Shown here piece after piece: positions 13,916-62,003 of a stretch of DNA of 64,000 nt. Within the stretch, counting starts at the first letter, position 1. Every line of letters begins with the position of its first letter. The notes beneath the pieces were generated by a model. The model did not search any database. It was not told the origin of the DNA and was given only the letters and a program-made list of their open reading frames with translations. The stretch is taken from assembly GCF_014764365.1 (NCBI RefSeq), contig NZ_CP061718.1:744001-808000 (forward strand), read 5' to 3'. The position numbers and the translations under genes were made by a program. The DNA is from Roseococcus microcysteis (GTDB lineage Bacteria; Pseudomonadota; Alphaproteobacteria; Acetobacterales; Acetobacteraceae).

Positions 13916-14575
13916 GTGAACGTCCTCGCACCACCCCGGCCGCGGCTTTCCGTCGAGATCGTCTTCGATCTCGTCTGCCCCTGGTGCTATCTGGGCGTGC
14001 GCCGCCTGCTGCGCGTCCTGGCCGAGCGGCCGGACCTGCAGGCCGAACTGCTCTGGCGCCCCTTCCTGCTGAACCCGGACATCGCCCCCGGCGGCGTCCC
14101 CCGCCAGGACTGGCTGACCCGGAAATTTGGCGGCGAGGAACGCGCCCGCCGCCTGCACGGCACCATCGCCGAGCTGGGCCAGGCCGAGGGCATCGCCTTC
14201 CGCTTCGAGCTGATGCGCCGCATCCCCTCCAGCCTGGATGGCCACCGGCTGCTGCGCTGGGCCGCCCCACAGGGGCCGCTGGACGGCCTCGTGGAGCGCA
14301 TCTTCCAGGCCTATTTCAGCGAGGGGCAGGATATCGGCCAGCACAGCGTCCTGGCCGCGCTGGCCGCCGCCGAGGGGCTCGACCCCGCCGAAGCCCGCCA
14401 ATTCCTGGCCAGCCCCGCCGAGACCGAGTGGGTCCATCTGGAGAACCTCCGCGCCCATCGCCTGGGCATCAACGGGGTGCCCTGCTTCCTGGTGGACGGG
14501 CAGCACGCCATCGCCGGCGCCCAAGAGGGCGAGGTGCTGCAACGCCTGATCGAGGTGGCACTCGCCACCTCCTGA
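13916..14575 (+). CDS. DsbA-family thioredoxin-fold oxidoreductase (FrnE-like), copy 1
   Basis: A 219-residue cytoplasmic protein of the DsbA/2-hydroxychromene-2-carboxylate isomerase-like FrnE group. The active site is CPWC (Cys21, Cys24) in DLVCPWCYLG, followed by the family's WRPFLLNPD, the helical insertion and the cis-Pro loop NGVPCFLVDG. It probably handles thiol-disulfide exchange. Translation appears to start at GTG 13916; the nearby ATG at 13908 runs into a stop within four codons. There is no Shine-Dalgarno site. A TAGAAT hexamer at 13904-13909 would place the transcript start almost on the GTG, so a leaderless mRNA is possible. A paralogue lies at 53725. Confidence 0.87.
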   Translation: MNVLAPPRPRLSVEIVFDLVCPWCYLGVRRLLRVLAERPDLQAELLWRPFLLNPDIAPGGVPRQDWLTRKFGGEERARRLHGTIAELGQAEGIAFRFELMRRIPSSLDGHRLLRWAAPQGPLDGLVERIFQAYFSEGQDIGQHSVLAALAAAEGLDPAEARQFLASPAETEWVHLENLRAHRLGINGVPCFLVDGQHAIAGAQEGEVLQRLIEVALATS

Positions 14576-14642: not shown

Positions 14643-15323
14643 ATGACGCATCTGACCATCGGCAGCGTGATCTTCCCGGACCTCGACCAGGTGGACCTGA
14701 CCGGGCCGCACGAGATCTTGTCCCGCCTGCCCGATTCGACCTGGCGCCTCTACGGGCCCAGCCTCGACCCCGTCACCGACATGAAGGGCCTGCGAATTCT
14801 GCCCGATGCCGTGCTGGAGGATGCGCCGCAGCTCGACGTGCTGCACGTCCCGGGCGGCTTCGGCGTGGACGCTGCCATGCGCGACCCGCGCCTGCTGGAC
14901 TGGCTGAAGCGCCAGGCCGAAGGGGCGCAACTGGTCTTCACCGTCTGCACCGGCTCCCTGCTGCTGGGCGCCACCGGGCTGCTGCGCGGCCGCCGCGCCA
15001 CCACCCATTGGGCCAGCCACCACCTGCTGCCCCTGCTGGGCGCCACCCCGGTGGATGAACGCGTGGTCGAGGACGGCAAGTTCGTGACCGCGGCCGGCGT
15101 GACCTCGGGCTTCGACGGCGCCCTGCACGTGGCCGCCAAGCTGCGTGGGTCCGAGGCGGCCCAGTTCATCCAGCTCTACATGCAGTATGACCCCCACCCG
15201 CCCTTCCAGGCCGGAAACCCCCGCACCGCCCCCGCCGCGACGCGCGACCAAGCCACCGCCGCCTTCGCGAACGTCGTCGCCGCGCGCGAGGCGGTGCTGC
15301 GGGGACTGCAGCTCACGGGGTGA
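14643..15323 (+). CDS. DJ-1/PfpI family protein, isonitrile hydratase-like
   Basis: A 226-residue protein with the DJ-1/PfpI glutamine-amidotransferase-like fold. The nucleophile elbow is VCTGSLLLG (Cys102), followed by RRATTHWASH, the pattern of isonitrile (isocyanide) hydratases and related DJ-1 members. The N-terminal VIFPDLDQVDLTGPHEIL supplies the conserved acidic residue (Glu or Asp) that supports the cysteine. Hydration of isocyanides is the best-characterised activity of this branch; glyoxalase-type or chaperone roles are alternatives. AAGGGGG precedes the ATG by about nine bases. The gene is 67 bases after the FrnE-like gene and ends just before the 206-base palindromic element. Confidence 0.82.
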   Translation: MTHLTIGSVIFPDLDQVDLTGPHEILSRLPDSTWRLYGPSLDPVTDMKGLRILPDAVLEDAPQLDVLHVPGGFGVDAAMRDPRLLDWLKRQAEGAQLVFTVCTGSLLLGATGLLRGRRATTHWASHHLLPLLGATPVDERVVEDGKFVTAAGVTSGFDGALHVAAKLRGSEAAQFIQLYMQYDPHPPFQAGNPRTAPAATRDQATAAFANVVAAREAVLRGLQLTG

Positions 15324-15334
15324 GGTGAGGCCCC

Positions 15335-15540
15335 GGGGAGGGCGCTGCCCTCCCCAGACCCCTCCCGCCGAGGGCCCAGGCCCTCGGAACCCTTTTGACT
15401 TAATGGGTATTCAGAGGGAGGGGCGTCACGGGCGCGCGCGTGATGCAGGGCACAACGTGCCCCTCCCTCCGAATACCCACTGAATCGAACGGGGTTAGGG
15501 GCCCATGGCCCCTGGCGGGGGTCCGGGGGCGGCAGCCCCC
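15335..15540. repeat. 206-base composite palindromic element, copy 1
   Basis: A five-part palindrome fills the gap between the convergent DJ-1 gene and the polyprenyl synthase gene. In order: hairpin A1 (15335-15355, 9-bp stem of GGGGAGGGC), hairpin B1 (15368-15387, 9-bp stem of CCGAGGGCC), a central long stem (15404-15424 with 15459-15479, 20 of 21 pairs), hairpin B2 (15497-15513) and hairpin A2 (15525-15540). The tip of the central stem has GCGCGCGTGA at 15434. A copy with the same order, nearly identical spacing and the same total length lies at 54362-54567. It contains no open frame of note and could act as a bidirectional terminator or as a non-autonomous mobile repeat. Confidence 0.85.
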
Positions 15541-15548
15541 GCCGGGCC

Positions 15549-16574
15549 TCAACGCGCCCGTGCGATGCAGAACCGCACCACCTCGGCCAGGGCGTGGCGG
15601 AAGGGGTTGTCGGGGAAGCCGGCCAGGGATTGCAGGGCGGCCTCGCCATAGGCTTCCGCGCGGGCGATGGTCTTGGCGACGGCGCCGTGGCGCGTCATCA
15701 GGCGCTGGGCTTCGGCGAAATCGCTCTCGTCCTGCTGGCGTTCCTCGATGGTGCGGCGCCAGAACTGCTGCTCGGCCGCGTCGCCGGCGTGGAAGGCGGC
15801 GAGCACGGGCAGGGTGATCTTGCCCTCGCGGAAATCGTCGCCGACGGTCTTGCCCAGCTTTTCCTGTTCGGCCGCGTAGTCGAGGGCGTCGTCCACCAGC
15901 TGGAAGGCGATGCCGAGGTTGCGGCCATAGGAATCCAGCGCCTCGGCTTCCGCCTCGGGCCGGTCGGCGACGACGGCGCCGAGGCGTGTGGCGGCGGCGA
16001 AGAGCGAGGCTGTCTTGCCCTCGATGACTTCGAGGTATTGCGCTTCGGTCGTGCCCAGGTCGTTCTGGATGAGGAGTTGCAGCACCTCGCCCTCCGCCAG
16101 CGTGGCGGCGGCCGAGGAGAGGATGCGCATCACCTCCAGGTTTCCATCCTCCACCATCAGGCGGAAGGCGCGGGCGAAGAGGAAGTCGCCCACCAGGACC
16201 GAGGGCTTGTTGCCGAAGAGGGCGTTGGCGCTGGCCTGGCCGCGGCGCAGGGTGCTTTCGTCCACCACATCGTCATGCAGCAGGGTGGCGGTGTGGATGA
16301 ACTCCACGCAGGCGGCGAGTGCCACATGGCGCGGCCCCTCATAGCCGCACATGCGCGAGGCACCCAACGTCAGCACCGGCCGCAGCCGCTTCCCACCCGA
16401 GCTGACCAGATGCGCGGCGAGCTGCGGGATGAGGGCCACCGGGCTGTGCATGCGCTCGACGATCAGGCGGTTGCACTGCGCCAGGTCCTCGGCCACGAGG
16501 GCGGTGAGGCGTTTCAGCGCGTCCTCGCCATGCCCGGCCGCGCCCTGGTCCTTCGCCTCGATCACACCACCCAC
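15549..16574 (-). CDS. ispB: Polyprenyl diphosphate synthase (octaprenyl/decaprenyl type)
   Basis: A trans-isoprenyl diphosphate synthase of about 341 residues that makes the long side chain of ubiquinone. The first Asp-rich motif is LLHDDVVDES and the second is QLVDDALDYA, with GGKRLRP and FLFARAF between the conserved regions. The product chain length is not readable with certainty. The frame is open upstream, but family proteins begin near this point. I placed the start at GTG 16574 (next option GTG 16565), since no good ATG exists and the initiation site is uncertain. It diverges from the DUF2007/methyltransferase pair, an arrangement common in alphaproteobacteria. Confidence 0.88.
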   Translation of the reverse strand: MGGVIEAKDQGAAGHGEDALKRLTALVAEDLAQCNRLIVERMHSPVALIPQLAAHLVSSGGKRLRPVLTLGASRMCGYEGPRHVALAACVEFIHTATLLHDDVVDESTLRRGQASANALFGNKPSVLVGDFLFARAFRLMVEDGNLEVMRILSSAAATLAEGEVLQLLIQNDLGTTEAQYLEVIEGKTASLFAAATRLGAVVADRPEAEAEALDSYGRNLGIAFQLVDDALDYAAEQEKLGKTVGDDFREGKITLPVLAAFHAGDAAEQQFWRRTIEERQQDESDFAEAQRLMTRHGAVAKTIARAEAYGEAALQSLAGFPDNPFRHALAEVVRFCIARAR

Positions 16575-52667: not shown

Positions 52668-53615
52668 CTACGCCGCCAGGATCGCCTCCACCACCTCCTG
52701 CACCGCCAGCGCCTCGCCGAGCGTGGCGAGGTCCACGCTCTCGCCCCGCGTGAGCGCGGCCAGCTTGTCGAGCTGGCGCGACAGGGTCAGCGGGCGCATC
52801 TGCGGGTTGGGCAGGGCGTCAGGGGCGGCGTGCCAGCCGCCATCGGCGCCCTGGCGCTCGGCGAAGGACCAGTCGCGCAGGCGCAGCGCGCCCTTGGTGC
52901 CGGTCACAACGAAGAGGTTGTGGTCCTCCGCCGCCACGGTGCCGACCGAACCTTCCAGCGTCACCGGCACGTCCCCAGCCATCAGGCGCGCTGTGATGGC
53001 CGTCTCGCAGGCCTCGCCGCCCGGGAATTCGGCGTGTGCCTGCTCCAGCCGCAGCCCACCGCCCAGGCGCTGCGCGAGAAAGAGGAAATGCGACACCACC
53101 TCGCGCGTAAAGCCGCCCTCGGCGCGCAGCGCGAGCCAGGAGGCGGCGGCCGCCTGCCAGGCACGCGGCCAGGCGGCGAAGGCCACCTTGATGGAGATGG
53201 ACTGGATCTCGCCTACCTCCGGCAGCCAGGCGCGCAGCTGCGCGACGGCCGGCGAGGAGGCCATGGGGAAGTTCACCGCCGCCCGCTGCCCGGCCGCGGC
53301 CGCCACGAAGGCGCGCGCCGCCGCCACGTCGGAGGCGAGCGGCTTCTCCAGGAAGAGCGAACGCCCCGCCCCCAGCACCGCCTGCCCATGCGCGATGTGC
53401 GAGGCGGGGGGCGAGGCGACATAGACGGCCTCGGCCGCCCCGATCGCCGCCTCGGCGCTGTCCAGCATGGGCACCGCGCCCGTGATGGCAGCCAGCCGCG
53501 CCGCCGCCGCGGGCGAAGGGTCCCACACGCCCACAACCCGCGTGCCGCCATGGTCCAGCGCCGCGCGCAACAGGCGCTCGCCCATGATGCCGAGGCCGAT
53601 GATGGAAAGCTGCAT
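52668..53615 (-). CDS. Gfo/Idh/MocA-family oxidoreductase
   Basis: A 315-residue NAD(P)-dependent dehydrogenase of the glucose-fructose oxidoreductase/inositol dehydrogenase superfamily. The dinucleotide motif is IIGLGIMGERL, and the EKPLAS motif provides the conserved catalytic-site Lys. No secretion signal is present. A sugar, inositol-like or other cyclic alcohol substrate is typical. It is separated from the FrnE-like gene by a divergent spacer of 109 bases and does not belong to the preceding cluster. Confidence 0.87.
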   Translation of the reverse strand: MQLSIIGLGIMGERLLRAALDHGGTRVVGVWDPSPAAAARLAAITGAVPMLDSAEAAIGAAEAVYVASPPASHIAHGQAVLGAGRSLFLEKPLASDVAAARAFVAAAAGQRAAVNFPMASSPAVAQLRAWLPEVGEIQSISIKVAFAAWPRAWQAAAASWLALRAEGGFTREVVSHFLFLAQRLGGGLRLEQAHAEFPGGEACETAITARLMAGDVPVTLEGSVGTVAAEDHNLFVVTGTKGALRLRDWSFAERQGADGGWHAAPDALPNPQMRPLTLSRQLDKLAALTRGESVDLATLGEALAVQEVVEAILAA

Positions 53616-53724
53616 GGGGGTGATCCTCGCCTATTCCGGCTTGCGCGGGCCCGATCCAGCCCGCAGAACAATGACGGACCGGCAATGGCGCAATCGGGGC
53701 GCCGCCGCAACGGGGATACGTTTC

Positions 53725-54348
53725 ATGGAACAGGCCCGCCGCATTGACGTGATCTCGGACGCGATCTGCCCCTGGTGCTGGATCGGCAAGCGGCAGCTGG
53801 AAGCCGCGCTGAGCCAGCTCGGCGGCGGTTTCGCCGTGTATTGGCGCCCCTACCAGCTCAACCCCGACATGCCCGTCGAGGGCGTCGAGCGCGCCAGCTA
53901 CCGCGCGGCCAAGTTCGGCAGCCTCGAACGCTCGCGGGAGGCCGATGCGCGCGTGGCCGAGGCCGGGCGCGCCGTGGGCCTCGAATTCCGCCACGACCGC
54001 ATGCTGCGCACGCCCAACACCATCAAGGCCCATCGCCTCATCCGCTGGGCGGCCGGGCCGCGCCAGGATGCCATGGTGGAAGCCCTGTTCCAGGCCTATT
54101 TCCACGACGGCCAGGACATCGGCGACGACGCCACCCTCGCCGCCCTCGCCACCGGCGCCGGCTTTGACGGTGCCGCCGAATTCCTCGCCTCCGGCGCCGA
54201 GGAGGCCGAAATCCGCGCCGAAGACGCCCAGTTCCGCCGCATCGGCATCTCCGGCGTGCCGAGTTTCGCCCTGGACGGCCGCGTGATGTTCAGCGGCGCC
54301 TGGCCCGCCGAGCGCATGGCGGAGGTCTTCACCCAGCGGGTGGCGTAG
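53725..54348 (+). CDS. DsbA-family thioredoxin-fold oxidoreductase (FrnE-like), copy 2
   Basis: A 207-residue protein with the CPWC active site (Cys15, Cys18) in DAICPWCWIGK, WRPYQLNPDMP, a helical insertion and the cis-Pro segment SGVPSFALDG. It is a paralogue of the gene at 13916; the two share all main landmarks but diverge broadly. GGGGA lies about nine bases before the ATG. It acts in cytosolic thiol-disulfide exchange, with substrate unknown. Like the DJ-1 gene that follows copy 1, it ends at the edge of a 206-base palindromic element. Confidence 0.88.
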   Translation: MEQARRIDVISDAICPWCWIGKRQLEAALSQLGGGFAVYWRPYQLNPDMPVEGVERASYRAAKFGSLERSREADARVAEAGRAVGLEFRHDRMLRTPNTIKAHRLIRWAAGPRQDAMVEALFQAYFHDGQDIGDDATLAALATGAGFDGAAEFLASGAEEAEIRAEDAQFRRIGISGVPSFALDGRVMFSGAWPAERMAEVFTQRVA

Positions 54349-54361
54349 GGGGCGCTGTGTC

Positions 54362-54567
54362 CCGGGAGGGCGCCGCCCTCCCGGACCCTCCCGCCAAAGG
54401 CCGGGGGCCTTTGGAAACCTCTCAGTGTGATGGGGTTGGAGAGGGAGGGGCCTGGTGCGCGCGTGACAAGGTCACACCCGCGACGCCCCTCCCTCTCCAA
54501 CCCCATGAGACGGGGTCCCAGGGGCCTGGGCCCCTGGCAGGGGGTTCGGGGGGACGGCGTCCCCCCG
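54362..54567. repeat. 206-base composite palindromic element, copy 2
   Basis: This copy lies between the convergent FrnE-like and alpha/beta hydrolase genes. Hairpin A1 is 54362-54384 (10-bp stem), B1 is 54394-54414 (9-bp stem), the central stem pairs 54430-54451 with 54485-54506 (22 perfect pairs), B2 is 54518-54537 and A2 is 54547-54567. GCGCGCGTGA recurs in the loop at 54457, and a small GTGAC-AAG-GTCAC hairpin lies beside it. Although most stem sequences differ from copy 1, the order and spacing are the same. Compensating changes on both arms indicate selection for structure or a recent invertible origin. Confidence 0.85.
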
Positions 54568-54585
54568 AGAGCCAGCCTCCCTACG

Positions 54586-55467
54586 CTACCGCTGCGCGAT
54601 GATCCCGCCGCTGATGCTGGCCGGGATGCGGGGGCGCCAGGCGTTGGCGTCCACGGTGGTGATGAAGTCTTGCAGCGCGCTGTTGAAGGCGCCGGGGTCT
54701 TCCAGGTTCATCGTGTGCCCGCATTTGGGCATGACGAGCAGCGCCGAGGTGGAGATGGTGCGCTTGAGGTAGAGGGCGGGTTCGAGGGTCGGGTCGTCCT
54801 CGTCGCCGGCGATGATGAAGGTGGGGACGGTCATCTTCCGGAACCCGGCTTCGAGGTCGAAGAGCGAGGGGCGCTCGCGCTGGCAGCCCAGCATGGTCAG
54901 CGCGGAGCCTTCGGTAGAATGCTCGCACATCTGCGCCTCGAATTCGGCGAAGCCGCGCGGGTCCTTTTCCTCGAAGATGAGGCGCGTCGGGCCATGGGCG
55001 TAGATGCGGCCGAATTCCTGCATGCCGCCTGCGCGGAGCTTCGCCACCGAGGCATCGATCTCCGCCTGGAACTGCGCGCGCTTGTCGGGCGCGGCGCCAT
55101 AGCCCACCCCGGCCGCGGTCAGGCTGCGGGCCAGGTGCGGGTGGCGCAGGCCGAGATGCAGGGCCGCGAAGGCACCCATGGAGAGGCCGACCACATGCGC
55201 GGGGCCAAGACCCAGCCCCTGGATCACGGCCGCGATATCGTCGGTGGCGCGGTCCTGCGAATAGGCACGCGGATCGGTCGGCACGTCCGAGGGCGGGTAT
55301 CCACGGGCATGGTAGGCGATGCAGCGATAGCGGCGGGAGAAGTAGCGGATCTGCGGCTCCCAGCTGCGCGCATCGCCGGCGAATTCATGGACGAAGACGA
55401 TGGGGGTGCCGCTTCCGGCCTCGACGTAATGGAGCGCGACACCATCATCGGTCATGACATGGGGCAT
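54586..55467 (-). CDS. Alpha/beta hydrolase
   Basis: A 293-residue cytosolic hydrolase. FVHEFAGDARSWEPQ forms the oxyanion region, GLSMGAFAALH the nucleophile elbow, and a later AGDEDDP Asp with PKCGHTMN His completes the triad. It resembles the dienelactone/3-oxoadipate enol-lactonase branch, but substrate assignment is unsafe. AGGAGA precedes ATG 55467, which selects this start over the longer frame. The 3' end is 18 bases from the palindromic element. Confidence 0.87.
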   Translation of the reverse strand: MPHVMTDDGVALHYVEAGSGTPIVFVHEFAGDARSWEPQIRYFSRRYRCIAYHARGYPPSDVPTDPRAYSQDRATDDIAAVIQGLGLGPAHVVGLSMGAFAALHLGLRHPHLARSLTAAGVGYGAAPDKRAQFQAEIDASVAKLRAGGMQEFGRIYAHGPTRLIFEEKDPRGFAEFEAQMCEHSTEGSALTMLGCQRERPSLFDLEAGFRKMTVPTFIIAGDEDDPTLEPALYLKRTISTSALLVMPKCGHTMNLEDPGAFNSALQDFITTVDANAWRPRIPASISGGIIAQR

Positions 55468-61620: not shown

Positions 61621-61989
61621 ATGAGCACCACCACCGAAGCCCCGCGCGTGAAGCGGGAATTGCCGCCCCTGATGTCCCTCTCCGAGGCGGCTGCCGAACG
61701 CCTGCGCCGCCTCTACGACAAGGCGGAAGCCGGCAAGCTGCTGCGCATCGGCGTGAAGACGAAGGGCTGCTCCGGCATGGCCTATGATTTGAGCTTCGTG
61801 GAAAGCCAAGGGCCGGGCGATGAGCGCGTGACCGACAAGGGCATCACCATCCTGGTGGACCGCAAGGCCACCCTCTACCTCCTCGGCACCACCATGGACT
61901 ACGAGGTGAAGCCGATGAGCGCCGGCTTCGTCTTCGTGAATCCGAACGAGAAGGGCCGCTGCGGCTGCGGCGAGAGCTTCCACGTCTGA
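61621..61989 (+). CDS. sufA: A-type Fe-S carrier SufA
   Basis: A 122-residue carrier protein. The three conserved cysteines are Cys50 (TKGCSGM) and Cys114/Cys116 (GRCGCGESF). It transfers assembled clusters to target proteins. It is preceded by GAAGGGAG and is the last gene of the suf operon. The stop codon lies within a short perfect hairpin that also spans the stop of the convergent TauE gene. Confidence 0.94.
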   Translation: MSTTTEAPRVKRELPPLMSLSEAAAERLRRLYDKAEAGKLLRIGVKTKGCSGMAYDLSFVESQGPGDERVTDKGITILVDRKATLYLLGTTMDYEVKPMSAGFVFVNPNEKGRCGCGESFHV

Positions 61990-62003
61990 GGCGCGCGGCC
62001 TCA
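61987..62003. terminator. Short bidirectional hairpin containing two stop codons
   Basis: TGAGGC-GCGCG-GCCTCA is a six-pair hairpin in which the TGA of sufA and the TGA of the convergent TauE gene form the outer stem ends. It is not followed by a T-tract and may only weakly terminate transcription. Confidence 0.35.

Follow-up and report, generated by a model that had tools for sequence, protein, structure and literature searches.

Two 206-nt stretches of the window, that is, of the whole 64,000-nucleotide piece of DNA analysed here (positions 744001–808000 of the 4,208,010-bp (4.2 Mb) Roseococcus microcysteis genome, hereafter G000; 71% G+C), belong to a dispersed family of composite palindromes. 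These lie downstream of genes, have covarying stems, obey a sequence rule linking each outer hairpin to the strand beside it, and have been inverted, lost or gained, and exchanged between close species. To the following reading of this family an even chance is given: each member is a non-coding repeat built of four intrastrand-triplex modules around a long hairpin, C, which would fold as a single strand and be rearranged by strand switching.

The original prediction, made from the letters alone, placed two such palindromes at 15335–15540 and 54362–54567, each with five hairpins in the order A1-B1-C-B2-A2, and both this layout and the central stems it described (20 of 21 positions paired in copy 1, 22 of 22 in copy 2) hold. 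The element follows the plan A-B-C-loop-C-B-A, and its parts are listed here, with the triplex classes explained further below.

Copy 1
15326–15333: outer inverted repeat TGAGGCCC, with partner GGGCCTCA at 15544–15551, which includes the stop codon of the minus-strand gene
15335–15355: hairpin A1
15359–15366, minus strand: putative third-strand linker of A1 (class-I triplex motif 15335–15366, stem 8; the plus strand reads as class III)
15370–15385: hairpin B1, followed by a GG turn and the linker AACCC (15388–15392)
15404–15424: left arm of the C stem (20 of 21 pairs)
15425–15458, plus strand: loop, 34 nt
15459–15479: right arm of the C stem
15497–15513: hairpin B2
15517–15540, plus strand: linker and hairpin A2 (class-I triplex motif, stem 5; hairpin 15525–15540)

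Copy 2
54362–54384: hairpin A1 (class-I triplex motif 54364–54392, stem 7, minus strand)
54394–54414: hairpin B1, followed by an AAACC linker
54430–54451: left arm of the C stem (22 of 22 pairs)
54452–54484, minus strand: loop, 33 nt, its orientation possibly opposite to that of copy 1 (modest evidence)
54485–54506: right arm of the C stem
54518–54537: hairpin B2 (class-I triplex motif 54512–54535, stem 5, plus strand)
54546–54568: hairpin A2 (class-I triplex motif 54539–54565, stem 6, plus strand)

Compared with dinucleotide shuffles, the fold energies give z scores of -7.4 for copy 1 and -9.1 for copy 2, with none of 200 shuffles as good. Both copies lie between convergent genes, as had been proposed: copy 1 between a DJ-1/PfpI gene (14643–15323, plus strand) and a polyprenyl synthetase gene (15549–16565, minus strand), and copy 2 between a DSBA gene (53467–54348, plus strand) and an alpha/beta hydrolase gene (54586–55467, minus strand). 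The motif GCGCGCGTGA, said to stand near the tip in both, is indeed present in both; its homology is more doubtful, because turning the loop of copy 2 over, relative to copy 1, slightly improves its match to the other loops (mean identity 0.63 inverted and 0.56 direct; inverted better with 6 of 10), and on this modest evidence the two occurrences may be non-homologous. DSBA-domain genes occur near both elements, one being the left neighbour of copy 2 and the other (13916–14575) the second gene upstream of copy 1. Elsewhere in the window, one short palindrome (61987–62003, TGAGGCGCGCGGCCTCA) has as its ends both stop codons of a convergent gene pair.

The two copies are part of a larger set. 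A blastn search of the whole of G000 with copy 1 returned 30 matches, fragments and both strands included, which correspond to 12 copies. A covariance model, R1, built from 11 G000 copies (alignment A1), gave 31 matches over both strands, equivalent to at least 14 copies, one relic (at 174440) and one weak match to a different repeat; since 150 of 6444 candidates were scored, 14 is a lower bound. Twelve copies are complete. The copy at 3240419–3240630 is without the loop, a few nucleotides closing its central stem where the 34-nt loop would be, and that at 1057169–1057396, which is 96% identical to copy 1 over 164 nt, is missing the A and B modules of one side. The weak match (351143–351325; 34.4 bits), excluded from the copy counts, represents a different repeat that is also found in G015 (C1:1725087), with A-B hairpins at both ends (GGGGCTCTGCCCCTGAAACCCCGCCAGGAAACTCGTTTCCTGG); by eye, its middle is unrelated and more AT-rich. 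A model of the half element returned 30 matches in G000 (150 of 8355 candidates scored), 27 of which correspond to halves of the 14 copies, another being the relic (here at 174530) and the last two weak, so that within this search no half unit was found dispersed alone.

The claim that changes in one arm are compensated in the other is upheld by the alignment of 11 copies, in which 94.1% of pair cells hold standard pairs (80.9% when shuffled) and both sides have changed in 31 of 56 pairs (15.0 when shuffled). The C stem is 100% paired, with both sides changed in 12 of 20 pairs. Over the whole alignment, sliding the partners by one base lowers pairing to 59–64%. R1 finds matches, some of them weak, in 16 of 19 genomes of the genus and a weak one in 1 of 12 genomes taken from other parts of the class (E 0.01). 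In a sample of the family, searched at E 1e-6 with stricter filters, the element is present in 85 of 200 genomes and 47 of 102 genera. A loop-core pattern found 47 stretches in named genomes, 46 of them in Roseococcus, Neoroseomonas, Roseomonas, Rubritepida, Falsiroseomonas and related MAGs; the remaining one is from Streptomyces, and its readable side is without arms. The element is thus the dispersed structured repeat that had been proposed. The window has no match to an Rfam family above the gathering threshold, and no description of this element in Acetobacteraceae was found among the best-ranked matches in open-licence literature.

The sequence rule and the inversions described below are additions to the original prediction. 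The linker 3' of each A and B hairpin is the parallel complement, or "mirror", of the 5' arm of its own hairpin. This was noticed on part of the data, namely 42 aligned half-elements in which the linker past hairpin A mirrors the 3' arm of A (e.g. GGGGAGAG...CTCTCCCC-AGA-CCCCTCTC), and was tested afterwards on the halves that could be parsed (A in 198 of 239, B in 172 of 239; the others were dropped). Among 54 distinct A modules of sufficient length, agreement counted over purine positions was 95.2%, against 69.2% for permuted linkers (sd 1.9, maximum of 2000 permutations 76.5); with one module per distinct 8-nt arm (24 arms) it was 95.3% against 66.6% (sd 3.1, maximum of 5000 permutations 78.4). 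In these modules, arm G faces linker C at 310 of 318 positions, while arm A faces T at 48, A at 18 and C at 11 of 77, i.e. T or A at 66. The B modules, whose third strands would be only about 5 nt long, obey the same rule with a GG turn (29 distinct modules, 87.7% against 62.8% permuted; 11 distinct arms, 90.5% against 61.3%, reached by none of 5000 permutations), arm G facing C at 57 of 67 positions and arm A facing T or A at 43 of 47.

The rule extends to named records outside those on which it was noticed. In records not titled Roseococcus, some of which are of the same genus, 11 arms agree at 96.2% against 70.4% permuted (0 of 5000), and with untitled MAGs also removed 8 arms agree at 96.6% against 71.6% (0 of 5000). 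When Rubritepida is removed too, leaving other genera only, 9 distinct modules agree at 95.7% against 76.5% (0 of 5000), and one module per arm, of which there are six, at 95.6% against 75.5% (10 of 5000). The linker is also specific to its own hairpin: in 48 distinct elements with differing A arms it fits its own arm at 96.3% and the opposite arm at 72.0%, its own being the better match in 88 cases and the worse in one, with seven ties. Pairing of the linker as Watson-Crick partner of the opposite linker was a weaker account, with 68.9% compatibility over 79 elements, and a G-quadruplex alone fails, by reasoning, for B linkers of the AAACC and ACACC types. The arms of the two sides differ as well: none of 33 distinct elements has matching A1 and A2 arms (2.7 expected at random; 208 of 5000 random sets as low), nor do B1 and B2 match in any of 56, which are not independent (8.9 expected at random).

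To our knowledge, there is no pairing or copying process that yields a mirror sequence. Such a relation is, judging by sequence, the one that a third strand would need. In the class I purine motif, a third strand antiparallel to the purine arm (G.G, A.A or T.A) is followed by the purine arm, a loop and the pyrimidine arm (PMC4666352), and the mirror rule, read on the other strand, gives the third-purine-pyrimidine order of class I in that scheme. Both T and A occur opposite arm A because the purine motif allows A.A-T and T.A-T together with G.G-C. A direct scan of the window for perfect class-I motifs with stems of at least 5 returned six, five of them inside the two elements, compared with 0.1 per shuffled window (20 shuffles); at stems of at least 6 there were three, all within the two elements, and none in shuffles. 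The motifs in the elements cover all four A hairpins and one of the four B hairpins, with stems of 5–8, and three of the five reach the stem of at least 6 required by the triplex search in PMC4666352. That at 15335–15366 in copy 1 can be read just as well, on the other strand, as a pyrimidine motif. No class II motif (stem of at least 8, one mismatch allowed) was found on either strand of the window.

Comparison with close relatives revealed how the element changes in place. In a trio of genomes that are about 94% identical (G000, G003 and G010), 13 loci were compared, each represented by a copy in G000 and by an ortholog in one or both of the others; two further loci, common to G003 and G010 only, lie outside this comparison. 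The whole element is inverted in G003 at 3 of the 13 (1117870, 1649254 and 3240419), between collinear flanks, most clearly at 3240419, where arm identity is 0.74 direct and 0.97 inverted and that of the flanks 0.96. At 594451 the B-to-B part alone is inverted (A 0.96 direct; B 0.75 direct, 0.90 inverted), and at 3370855 it is the loop (0.53 direct, 0.76 inverted). A loop inversion seen by eye at 1136969, between G000 and G010, was withdrawn (0.62 direct, 0.68 inverted), and the idea that the loop sets the polarity of insertion was dropped after the inversion at 3370855 was found. In a second clade (G005, G008, G014, G015 and G032), from which 24 of 33 ortholog pairs were compared and nine with deletion-shortened elements (L214, L223 and L235) excluded, whole inversion was found at 8 of 10 loci, with one mixed and one not inverted. 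Other changes affect composition: at 1117870 three species carry three different C stems, and at 1739599 there is A1-B-A2 only. In G003 one hairpin stands in the place of each window copy, between the same genes, and at copy 1 this hairpin is a chimera of A1 and A2. One site of an element is empty in G015.

A codon model trained on the window served to score which way the flanking genes run. The 14 copies in G000 comprise 11 between convergent genes (one with a weak left score), two between tandem genes and one unclear; 48 matches in named records comprise 20 convergent, 16 tandem and 12 unscored at contig edges, the Streptomyces record included; and 34 loci in the second clade comprise 16 convergent and 18 tandem. 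Divergent placement was seen in 0 of the 83 scored copies, which include many orthologs, two loci counted twice (L103 = L216, L126 = L208) and the G015 repeat of the other kind. The convergent setting seen at both window copies does not carry over to the family at large, as about half of the scored copies outside G000 lie between tandem genes. For comparison, the gene pairs called in the window are 37 tandem, 8 divergent and 7 convergent, the caller having missed one gene at 53.7–54.3 kb, and the other convergent pairs called there are without the element. In the 11 convergent G000 copies, hairpin A begins 7–35 nt past the stop codon, with a median of 11 (19 of 22 readable sides). In named-record copies between tandem genes, many of them orthologs, the genes run against the loop orientation of the pattern in 13 of 16 and along it in three.

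This placement fits the main rival of the triplex-repeat reading, a bidirectional transcription terminator or 3'-end RNA stabiliser under selection, with hairpins acting in RNA and neutral turnover of sequence, which is regarded as possible, if doubtful. The single hairpin retained in G003 would agree with it, as would conservation: in 14 direct-orientation comparisons the arms are 0.96–1.00 identical, against means of 0.93–0.95 for other windows, and in eight of them at most 7% of other windows match the element in conservation (11–64% in the other six). Since direct elements are thus often more conserved than nearby DNA, a selected function is suggested rather than mere instability. The details fit a terminator less well. 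A T run is absent after the A hairpins, where the linker consensus is nGACCCCnCCCGCC (a TTTT at 15393–15396 follows B1 of copy 1 and is absent in copy 2), and at many linker positions there is an A although a pyrimidine triplex in RNA would call for U. The structure far exceeds what a terminator needs, and there are only about 14 copies, while the other convergent pairs called in the window are without one. Furthermore, E. coli triplex repeats are reported to be without terminator activity (PMC4666352, on the basis of earlier work). The terminator put forward in the original prediction therefore stands as to position and falters as to the T run and the E. coli precedent. Such a role is nevertheless compatible with the triplex reading, and both may coexist.

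The original prediction also offered a non-autonomous mobile repeat, which is borne out in part, as close species differ by gain, loss and exchange of copies. Movement by a transposase encoded elsewhere in the genome, as for a MITE or REPIN-like non-autonomous transposon, could account for the 1057169 copy, so similar to copy 1 at another locus and without an ortholog in G010. It could likewise account for a copy present only in G010, which starts at a TAG stop 1 kb from a 92% identical neighbour, the site being empty in G000 and G003. At the sites of the two window copies G003 keeps one hairpin each, so that a loss there is no less probable than a gain in the other genomes. Moreover, no clean target-site duplication was seen at the sites compared, and a search limited to the RAYT family (PF01797) found no match in 12 genomes of the genus while detecting the family in 5 of 14 control genomes. 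A transposon is consequently considered improbable.

A structure-recognising recombinase acting on folded hairpins, as the integron integrase acts on attC, would invert elements and exchange cassettes or cargo, as the inversions and the module exchange at 1117870 might suggest. One case of cargo is on record: in G014 (C298:15200–17300), A1 and B2-A2 arms flank a DUF900 alpha/beta hydrolase gene (ORF 536–1600) in place of C-loop-C, in a stretch of 62% G+C between flanks of 72%, the same site holding a plain element in G005 and nothing in G015. It stands alone, because the extra genes that G008, G032 and G000 also carry at the site (L239) are without such hairpins at their ends. An integron integrase scored above the curated cut-off in none of 19 genomes, tyrosine recombinases were only sub-threshold and also present in the 14 controls, and the nested inversion ends, at A, B or the loop, fit strand switching just as well. 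This makes a recombinase very unlikely. Finally, chance likeness of two GC-rich spacers, which the 71% G+C of the window might favour and by which the prediction could have failed, is refuted by the further copies (at least 14), the compensated arms and the shuffle controls.

In the preferred reading, that of triplex modules rearranged by strand switching, a palindrome of A1, B1, B2 and A2 around hairpin C, with its loop of about 34 nt, would be exposed as a single strand on the lagging strand or by transcription through the 3' end. Each exposed module would form a hairpin, onto which the adjoining purine run would fold back as a reverse-Hoogsteen third strand. The fold would stall the polymerase, and the nascent strand, we infer, would switch between like modules of the two arms, giving inversion (A-to-A, B-to-B or of the loop), deletion to one hairpin, or copying of the element. 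Behind genes the element would do little harm and so persist, and it may block convergent read-through. The arms are argued not to be long enough for ordinary homologous recombination; the same rearrangements could come from repair or from an unknown recombinase. For the E. coli motif, Holder et al. report that neither work on duplex DNA nor in vivo footprinting gave a stable triplex (PMC4666352). A broader proposal, which we hold to be rather unlikely, is that of self-inverting class-I triplex palindromes, in which sequence is selected for a three-stranded fold, and in which a process that depends on this fold, either strand switching or a recombinase that reads the structure, flips modules and trades them from locus to locus, in some cases along with a gene between the arms.

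The family bears on the question of what intrastrand triplex repeats mean in living bacteria. The conserved E. coli motif is reported without a demonstrated function in gene expression (PMC4666352). In the present family one third-strand rule holds across many different sequences; taken comparatively, this is evidence that it is the three-stranded relation that is being kept. The inversions, in turn, are natural, countable events that offer a test of whether such folds are tied to genome rearrangement.

Several known systems resemble the element in part. Integron attC sites are set aside by the integrase search. Hairpin inversions of plastid DNA are small inversions of non-coding DNA between the arms of an inverted repeat; they share with the element an inverted stretch between such arms, whereas in the present family, which is bacterial and dispersed, inversions occur at several nested levels. 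Double-hairpin, or repetitive hairpin-forming, elements of mitochondrial DNA are mobile-looking and likewise keep their structure while the sequence changes; they differ in belonging to organelles, and we know of no triplex rule for them.

REP, BIME and REPIN sequences are also intergenic palindromes, often in inverted pairs and mostly between convergent or tandem genes (PMC3733652). The present element differs in that no RAYT match was found in the 12 genus genomes searched, on which ground a RAYT-mobilised REPIN is rejected, and in its half unit, not found dispersed alone in G000; CGTC repeats are reported missing in Acetobacteraceae (PMC3733652).

The element would best be read as a composite relative, in kind, of the E. 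coli BoxC/PIT triplex repeats. As described in PMC4666352, the BoxC/PIT/TM_ECO repeats are likewise dispersed and intergenic, with a GC-rich hairpin and an adjoining third strand under purine-motif rules. Their inverted pairs always join two different types, A with B, much as A1 differs from A2 and B1 from B2 here, and they change between close strains, intergenic deletions sometimes leaving one hairpin, like the cut-down states described above. The E. coli motif is of class II (Y-R-third), a single 34–37 nt module with one consensus, oftener upstream than downstream of ORFs (PMC4666352), whereas the present element is of class I (third-R-Y), its four modules, varied in sequence, being set about a long hairpin, and it lies downstream of a gene and undergoes whole-element inversion. 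It is not BoxC proper, whose class II order is absent from the window at stems of at least 8. It is filed among intrastrand-triplex repeats because the PIT/BoxC repeats are reported, in PMC4666352, to combine heterotypic pairing, instability and an absence of terminator activity.
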